NCBI GenBank assembly: GCA_016285265.1
Contig: JAEEQL010000019.1
Location: 1-32,176 of the forward strand
DNA: 32,176 nt
Reading direction: 5' to 3'
DNA from: Lachnospiraceae bacterium
GTDB taxonomy: Bacteria > Bacillota > Clostridia > Lachnospirales > Lachnospiraceae
Shown here: positions 1,315 through 1,467 of the stretch, piece by piece
How the letters are laid out: each line of letters starts with the position of its first letter
Numbering within the stretch: position 1 is the first letter of the stretch
The notes under the pieces: model-generated
Databases searched by the model: none
Told to the model about the DNA's origin: nothing
Seen by the model: the letters and a program-made list of their open reading frames with translations, nothing else
Made by a program: the position numbers and the translations under genes

Positions 1315-1467
1315 CCGGGCAGGCGCATCTTTTTTTCAACGCGGACGCGCCTCCCGGCTCCGGTTCAGGCCGTAGCGGTACTAAGTTCGAACTGCGCACG
1401 GCTTGTTCTCACTAAGTACCGACGACCTTCACAGGGTCCGCTTATGAATAAAAAGATGTGCCTACCC
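1315..1467 (+). ncRNA. Structured intercistronic RNA (candidate riboswitch or orphan ncRNA)
   Basis: This non-coding stretch between two genes folds strongly by eye. A closing helix pairs 1317-1334 with 1450-1467 (18 positions, one C-A mismatch at 1320/1464 and one G-U at 1325/1459). Inside it GCGGAC (1341-1346) pairs with GTCCGC (1436-1441). CGGTACT (1376-1382) pairs with AGTACCG (1415-1421), and CCT/AGG closes a small hairpin at 1426-1435. GCCGT (1369-1373) can pair with ACGGC (1398-1402), crossing the 1376/1421 helix as a pseudoknot. A competing GC-rich helix, CCGGG-C-AGGCGC (1315-1326) with GCGCCTCCCGG (1347-1357), excludes the closing helix, so two states are possible. The closing helix ends just before the GGAG ribosome site (1471-1474) of the next gene. 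I could not assign it to a known class; the Firmicutes raiA motif is one family to compare. Confidence 0.6.

Follow-up and report, generated by a model that had tools for sequence, protein, structure and literature searches.

A dispersed intergenic repeat of Lachnospiraceae with a conserved folded core and hypervariable closing arms

The window analyzed here, a stretch of 32,176 nucleotides from a Lachnospiraceae bacterium, contains at positions 1309-1480 a gap between a gene for an MFS_2 sugar transporter, which ends at 1308, and a gene for a DUF6937/DUF6938 protein, which starts at 1481 and is followed downstream by a GH36 melibiase-type gene. The 503-aa product of the middle gene (1481-2992) combines DUF6937 with DUF6938, neither of which has an assigned function. 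The gap is strongly folded, with a minimum free energy of -73.7 kcal/mol compared to -48.7 ± 3.8 for 200 shuffled versions (z = -6.5), none of which folded as well. A sequence-only reading of this region had described a closing helix, a nested second helix and a branched interior, and folding confirmed all three (Table 1), the interior consisting of a small hairpin at 1349-1358 and a long arm at about 1361-1435. The conserved part of this arm, P3, is composed of CGT/ACG, a 2-nt bulge (1374-1375), CGGTACT/AGTACCG, an A.A mismatch, AGT/ACT, a TC/TC internal loop (1387-1388 and 1409-1410), which the minus strand shows as a tandem GA, and an apical stem that varies. The closing helix adjoins the ribosome site of the next gene, its end at 1467 lying two bases 5' of the AGGAG at 1470-1474. 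The element folds better on the minus strand (-81.8) than on the plus strand (-73.7).

Table 1. Positions in the window of the repeat copy and its structural parts.
Feature	Positions	Strand	Remarks
Whole element copy	1317-1467	minus	Bounded by the closing helix; best-folding strand, antisense to the operon
P1 closing helix, 5' arm	1317-1338		Pairs with 1445-1467; hypervariable between copies, even within one genome
P1 closing helix, 3' arm	1445-1467		Pairs with 1317-1338
P1 inner helix, 5' arm	1341-1346		Pairs with 1436-1441; two-sided changes in 6 of 6 pairs, 19 seeds
P1 inner helix, 3' arm	1436-1441		Pairs with 1341-1346
P2 hairpin	1349-1358	minus	GCC-TCCC-GGC; on the minus strand GCC-GGGA-GGC, GNRA loop
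P3 core arm	1371-1424	minus	Covariation; near-invariant TC/TC loop

The same reading had noted a competing GC-rich helix and proposed two mutually exclusive folds, an arrangement said to fit a translational riboswitch or a free-standing noncoding RNA, for example of the raiA type. The competing helix is present in the letters of the window, where the 5' arm can pair with GCGCCTCCCGG at a duplex energy of -25.3. Over 208 distinct copies of the element, however, the complementarity between arm and P2 (-11.9) was at the level obtained with shuffled P2 (-12.1), so that the competing helix is confined to a few copies and the mutually exclusive folds are not conserved. No Rfam 15 family reached the gathering score in the window, and a search of the gap at E ≤ 10 returned a single match, at its start-codon end, with 16.9 bits against a cut-off of 49. 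In a set of 20 loci, nine matches were obtained at the gathering score and none of them fell on the element; in 20 loci searched at E ≤ 0.1 none did. Riboswitch, raiA and other Rfam classes were rejected due to this absence of matches at either the gathering score or relaxed E-values, and with them the proposal of a raiA-type RNA. The suggestion that the class may be undescribed is plausible; a search of the open-access literature found no description of the element, and within that literature the repeat family seems to be undescribed.

A covariance model, R1, was built from 19 seed loci. In its alignment 87% of the cells are paired and two-sided changes are found in 27 of the 33 pairs (shuffled mean 18.3), with a covariation score of 0.506 versus 0.193. 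When the partner was shifted by 1-3 columns as a control, pairing fell to 33-40%. Covariation, which had been proposed as a check on the fold, is thus strong. The model matches the window copy at 1326-1463 with an E-value of 2.6e-28, as expected for a member of the seed. Within the same genome, BLAST with the gap as query detected two further good copies and an R1 search detected six copies.

Similar searches were extended to other genomes. BLAST of the gap at E ≤ 0.1 gave matches in 44 of 200 genomes of the family, many of them short and weak, while R1 at E ≤ 1e-3 did so in 197 of the 397 family genomes that were sampled (163 of 320 among those of good quality) and, at E ≤ 1e-4, in all 31 examined genomes of the window's own genus. 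Twelve chosen genomes carried from 4 to at least 150 copies each, the upper figure coming from a genome (G016) in which all 150 scored candidates, out of 1171, matched. In a sample of the order, 21 of 246 genomes had the element and all 21 belong to the window's family; in a sample of the phylum, the element was present in 5 of 398 genomes, with G979 as the sole carrier from outside the family. The latter genome contains at least 8 copies (L169-L176), all eight scored candidates having matched, and this number in a single non-family carrier suggests horizontal transfer. A search of GTDB genomes with the exact core pattern returned at least 115 stretches; among the 80 matches listed, the titles name Lachnospiraceae, Agathobacter, Eubacterium, Lachnoclostridium, Fusicatenibacter, Clostridia and similar. 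One of these carriers, Eubacterium sp. MSJ-21 (contig NZ_JAHLPZ010000001.1), is available in culture. The exact core pattern was absent from viral contigs (0 matches), plasmids and phages gave no match to the element, and carriage by phages or plasmids was rejected on these grounds.

Copies of the element are intergenic, only 2 of 174 distinct ones overlapping a large ORF. With genes called by a simple ORF rule and the model strand taken as sense, 134 copies could be placed between two neighbors (the other 40 lacked two called neighbors): 45 were antisense to both neighbors, 43 sense to both, 33 lay between convergent genes and 13 between divergent genes. No common neighbor was found among 90 proteins examined, from 130 selected and 244 collected, which matched 206 Pfam families with none occurring in more than four proteins. 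The gene for the 503-aa protein was detected at E ≤ 1e-100 in 25 of 59 relatives searched, the window's own genome included, and in ten relatives it adjoins the transporter gene. Two of the ten carry a copy of the element there and eight do not; R1 applied to nine of these loci (L293-L301) matched L294 and L295 only. One of the two, in G116, has the orientation of the window copy, unrelated arms and a diverged core. The other, in the sister species G1015, is the window's element inverted, arms included, with 99.3% identity over 153 bp inside a locus alignment of 84%.

These data bear directly on the proposal that the fold controls the galactoside operon in cis, as a translational riboswitch or an attenuator. 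The end of the helix two bases before the Shine-Dalgarno sequence and the existence of an alternative helix would fit such a role, for which a sense-strand position upstream of the regulated gene would be required. Since antisense copies are as numerous as sense copies, no neighboring gene is held in common, the sister species has the element inverted and most relatives with both genes adjoining lack it, the riboswitch was rejected, and the lack of conservation of the alternative helix makes it even harder to sustain; we regard it as extremely unlikely. The fold in the window is one copy of a dispersed repeat and not a riboswitch private to that operon. As a whole, the earlier interpretation is therefore partly supported: its structure holds up, its regulatory assignment does not.

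Orthologous sites revealed gain, loss and change of direction. Filled and empty versions of the same site were found (L157 and L451 versus the empty L448, and L444 versus L447), and inspection by eye of an empty site showed no clear target duplication. In G1027, five copies with the same model-region sequence lie inside a larger repeated stretch and have at least two different 3' flanks. Such filled and empty orthologous sites, together with near-identical copies in G1027 and in G290, are what is expected of a mobile element. In G290, pairs of elements belong to a longer unit that is itself repeated and has a TGGGGACAGGCCCAAATTGCAC-like sequence, in inverted copies, on its two sides (L162, L163 and L164, by eye), and the same pair with the same arms occupies three loci, being inverted in one of them (by eye).

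Opposite orientations were encountered at two further loci in addition to that of the window. At L372 versus L374 the elements are 94.7% identical over 150 bp when one is inverted, with flanks at 81-84%, and at L376 versus L378 the inner arms are similar by eye, with flanks at 75-79%. The inverted elements have a left arm unlike their right arm, which makes a simple swap during assembly an unlikely explanation; the opposite orientations could reflect independent insertions at hot spots, most likely so at the third locus (L376/L378). Altogether, both orientations were seen at 3 of 19 compared single-copy sites, corresponding to 3 of 5 in genus g1, none of 10 between elements of G207 and G454, and none of 4 in g153. 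Inversion is thus not general across elements, as all 14 comparisons made outside genus g1 showed the same orientation on both sides. At two dimer loci the orientation of each position is kept, and in the dimer L350 versus L351 the two cores appear by eye to have been exchanged while the spacer kept its direction. Phase variation, in which a dedicated recombinase would flip the element as an inverton and so switch expression, would account for the opposite orientations at three orthologous loci. We nevertheless consider it highly improbable in view of the constant orientation in the other two genera, of dimers that are never divergent within 1.5 kb (see below), and of the neighboring proteins, in which no recombinase family was common to at least two of the 90 (a count that leaves aside families with a single hit).

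Neighboring copies showed a marked preference in their arrangement. Within 1.5 kb, 41 pairs were convergent, 6 tandem and none divergent. The pairs separated by up to 300 bp comprised 28 convergent and 2 tandem, those at 301-1500 bp 13 convergent and 4 tandem, and those beyond 1500 bp 3 convergent, 15 tandem and 11 divergent, these counts not being fully independent because orthologous dimers are included. Pairs of elements acting as transposon ends around a cargo were considered and rejected, as the gene enclosed at L117 resembles a pilin-type host gene by eye. Regarding replication, 25 versus 19 of the 44 copies in G178 fell on the two strands (hand tally, with one copy in a switch interval; P = 0.23), in a genome where the replichores are uncertain because the GC skew changes sign four times; with no clear preference among these copies, a replication-strand bias was rejected. 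Thirteen of the same 44 copies are clustered within about 135 kb (C1, 1.16-1.30 Mb) of the 2.45-Mb contig.

The core contrasts with the closing arms in its constancy. P2 is a small hairpin. Its loop is TYNC, equivalent to GNRA on the complement, in all 40 of the 3-bp hairpins that could be read unambiguously; of 178 matches to GC-NNNN-GC, 139 have this loop, and many of the remaining 39 look like off-register first matches. A subfamily (L043, L366, L372-L375) has a different and longer P2 loop. In P3, which has the same succession of bulge, mismatch, internal loop and apical stem as in the window, the TC/TC internal loop is invariant in the 19 seeds, and of 223 copies 202 have TC in its 5' half and 192 in its 3' half. 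Core identity at orthologous sites was 94-100% in genera g1 and g207 (85% in one comparison) and 78-95% in g153. In several genera a short foot could be discerned by eye, with ACG...CTG as its reading in the model orientation; it is unclear in the window copy. In G016, where copies occur about every 2 kb in stretches picked for holding hits, conserved sequence is also present outside P1, which places the hypervariable arms within the element.

GNRA loops and tandem GA are stable in RNA and also in DNA. The complement of the model strand folded better in 187 of 227 copies with RNA parameters (by a mean of 4.8 kcal/mol) and in 174 of 227 with DNA parameters (by a mean of 1.8), and these energies, together with the loop motifs, suggest that the strand that folds is probably the one complementary to the plus strand of the window. 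The loops, the energies and a core that remains highly identical at orthologous sites while the arms change would all be compatible with a multi-copy class of structured RNA, in which a trans-acting or processed transcript is made from the complement strand and dispersal is secondary. A promoter consensus was sought on the complement strand, in the sequence preceding P1, and rejected: positions 1150-1650 of the window contain no promoter-like site, and upstream of P1 in 48 copies from G016 there is a moderately conserved TAGAACAG block that can be read as a -10 hexamer, with no -35. This argues against the RNA class, as does the lack of co-orientation with genes.

The arms of P1 are hypervariable. 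The long helix that they form has a median of 23 Watson-Crick pairs in 77 of 85 copies, which together hold 1610 such pairs and 23 single mismatches, among them 8 G.T and 2 A.C. Differences between the arms of different copies are paired changes, including G-C to C-G. In 13 comparisons of orthologs, a set that includes some flank pairs beyond the arms and several comparisons from the same locus, 44 two-sided changes to Watson-Crick pairs were counted, along with 40 one-sided changes and 15 two-sided changes to a non-pair; 14 further comparisons yielded 27, 61 and 11, respectively. At short range, one-sided changes that leave the arms unpaired are common, and in the latter set they included 14 A.C and 8 G.T. 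Over all pairs of the structure in 173 copies, G.T (121) and A.C (114) were found in similar numbers, single pairs supplying 44 of the T.G and 38 of the C.A. A set of 18 tRNAs had 371 Watson-Crick pairs, 30 G.T and 0 A.C, the zero perhaps resulting from the pairing rule of the program, which makes it a weak control. As one-sided changes give A.C at least as often as G.T, the arms do not follow the wobble path of RNA selection, and the data fit a process acting on DNA that corrects or replaces arm sequence in bulk. This absence of a wobble bias speaks further against the RNA class, which we judge unlikely. Guide-like arms were also rejected, given that their matches elsewhere in the window's own genome at E ≤ 10 were of chance size (two matches were 14 bases long, and a third spanned 19 bases at 89%).

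Replacement of whole arms between orthologous copies was also observed (L423/L431 and L421/L433). Between L423 and L431 the outer arms are unrelated, the core is identical at 63 of 65 positions and the flanks are 92-96% identical, and this pair holds 11 of the 14 two-sided Watson-Crick changes between G207 and G454. The arms can apparently be replaced, and the direction flipped, with the core staying nearly unchanged.

Several known systems share part of these properties. The element resembles the REP, BIME and REPIN sequences that have RAYT (GTAG- or CGTC-tagged), described in PMC3733652 and PMC6006769 as dispersed intergenic palindromes of high copy number with inverted dimers and a short conserved foot. 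The main text of PMC3733652 does not contain the words Firmicutes or Clostrid-. Unlike REP sequences of 20-40 bp, however, the element is several times longer (150-230 bp), with a three-way-junction core and hypervariable closing arms. REP hairpins carry an unpaired GTAG or CGTC tag at the foot, and the foot of the element reads, by eye in several genera, CAG...CGT on the complement. A Y1_Tnp domain (E ≤ 1e-5) was present in 14 of 25 carrier genomes and missing from 11, among them the one- to two-contig genomes G391, G232, G304 and G282 and the 100%-complete G060, which has 86 copies. Mobilization by a cognate Y1 transposase (RAYT/TnpAREP) was therefore rejected. Although the element is MITE/REP-like in behavior, this absence and the lack of a clear strand preference in G178 led us not to file it as a REP, and we give little credence to a REP/REPIN element moved by such an enzyme, in spite of the high copy number, the intergenic position, the inverted dimers and the foot motif outside the palindrome.

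MITEs have constant ends, whereas the arms of the element vary from copy to copy and only the short foot is common to several genera. Otherwise the element is like MITEs such as the enterobacterial RU elements (PMC2759123) in being short, non-autonomous and intergenic, with inverted arms at its ends. A third comparison is with structured RNAs, for which the Rfam searches described above are relevant. The raiA, ROOL and Drum RNAs are multi-copy structured RNAs that came from comparative-genomics screens. With RNAs of this kind the element shares strong covariation, a junction and a GNRA-type loop (on the complement), and it differs from them in having no Rfam match at the gathering score or at relaxed E-values.

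Our preferred reading, held with moderate confidence, is that Lachnospiraceae harbor a short, non-autonomous mobile repeat of about 150-230 bp which lies between genes, is MITE/REP-like in behavior and works as a folded single strand. Regarding whether the core acts as RNA or as single-stranded DNA, we lean toward a mobile DNA element. The core would serve as a recognition hairpin for a mobilizing enzyme, and the arms would assist its extrusion. Inverted repeats are reported in PMC8604942 to undergo template switching that homogenizes their arms and inverts the spacer, two effects also seen among the present copies, and PMC8794818 ties template switching to RNA hairpins. Fold-back template switching of this type between the arms during replication could keep them complementary and invert the interior. 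As template switching alone supplies neither new arms nor new sites, spread needs an enzyme; no mobilizing enzyme was found in the neighborhood of the copies, where the 90 proteins have only common Pfam families in common. Template switching also explains wholesale arm replacement poorly, and independent insertion at a hot spot could be the source of it. A bolder proposal, which we find doubtful, is a new class of mobile element with a folded single-stranded core made of the GNRA-type hairpin and the tandem-GA arm. Its closing arms would differ between copies because, on insertion or later, one arm would serve as template for the other, perhaps by way of a self-priming RNA or single-stranded DNA intermediate, giving a SINE-like, self-templated palindrome that could also flip in place. 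The copy in the window would be mainly a passenger, and its hairpin beside the ribosome site might secondarily affect translation of the downstream gene.

Should the preferred reading be right, a repeat carried by roughly half of the genomes sampled from a gut-associated family, and reaching at least 150 copies in one of them, would have no Rfam entry, and its copies would constitute an abundant natural record of how the pairing of long hairpins can stay nearly perfect by a route other than the wobble path of RNA selection. This would call for caution in the discovery of noncoding RNAs by covariation, and would point to the existence of a mobilizing enzyme.

Some individual copies depart from the common plan. 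At L356 (1125-1570) an insertion of about 57 bp with its own hairpin separates P1 from P2, and is missing from the ortholog L351. In G330 one element seems by eye to have been inserted into the arm of another, the composite being found at seven fetched sites (L119-L122 and L127-L129). Finally, L383 (965-1125) is a remnant that has lost its core and retains the P1 hairpin alone, as if from a deletion between short direct repeats in the arms.
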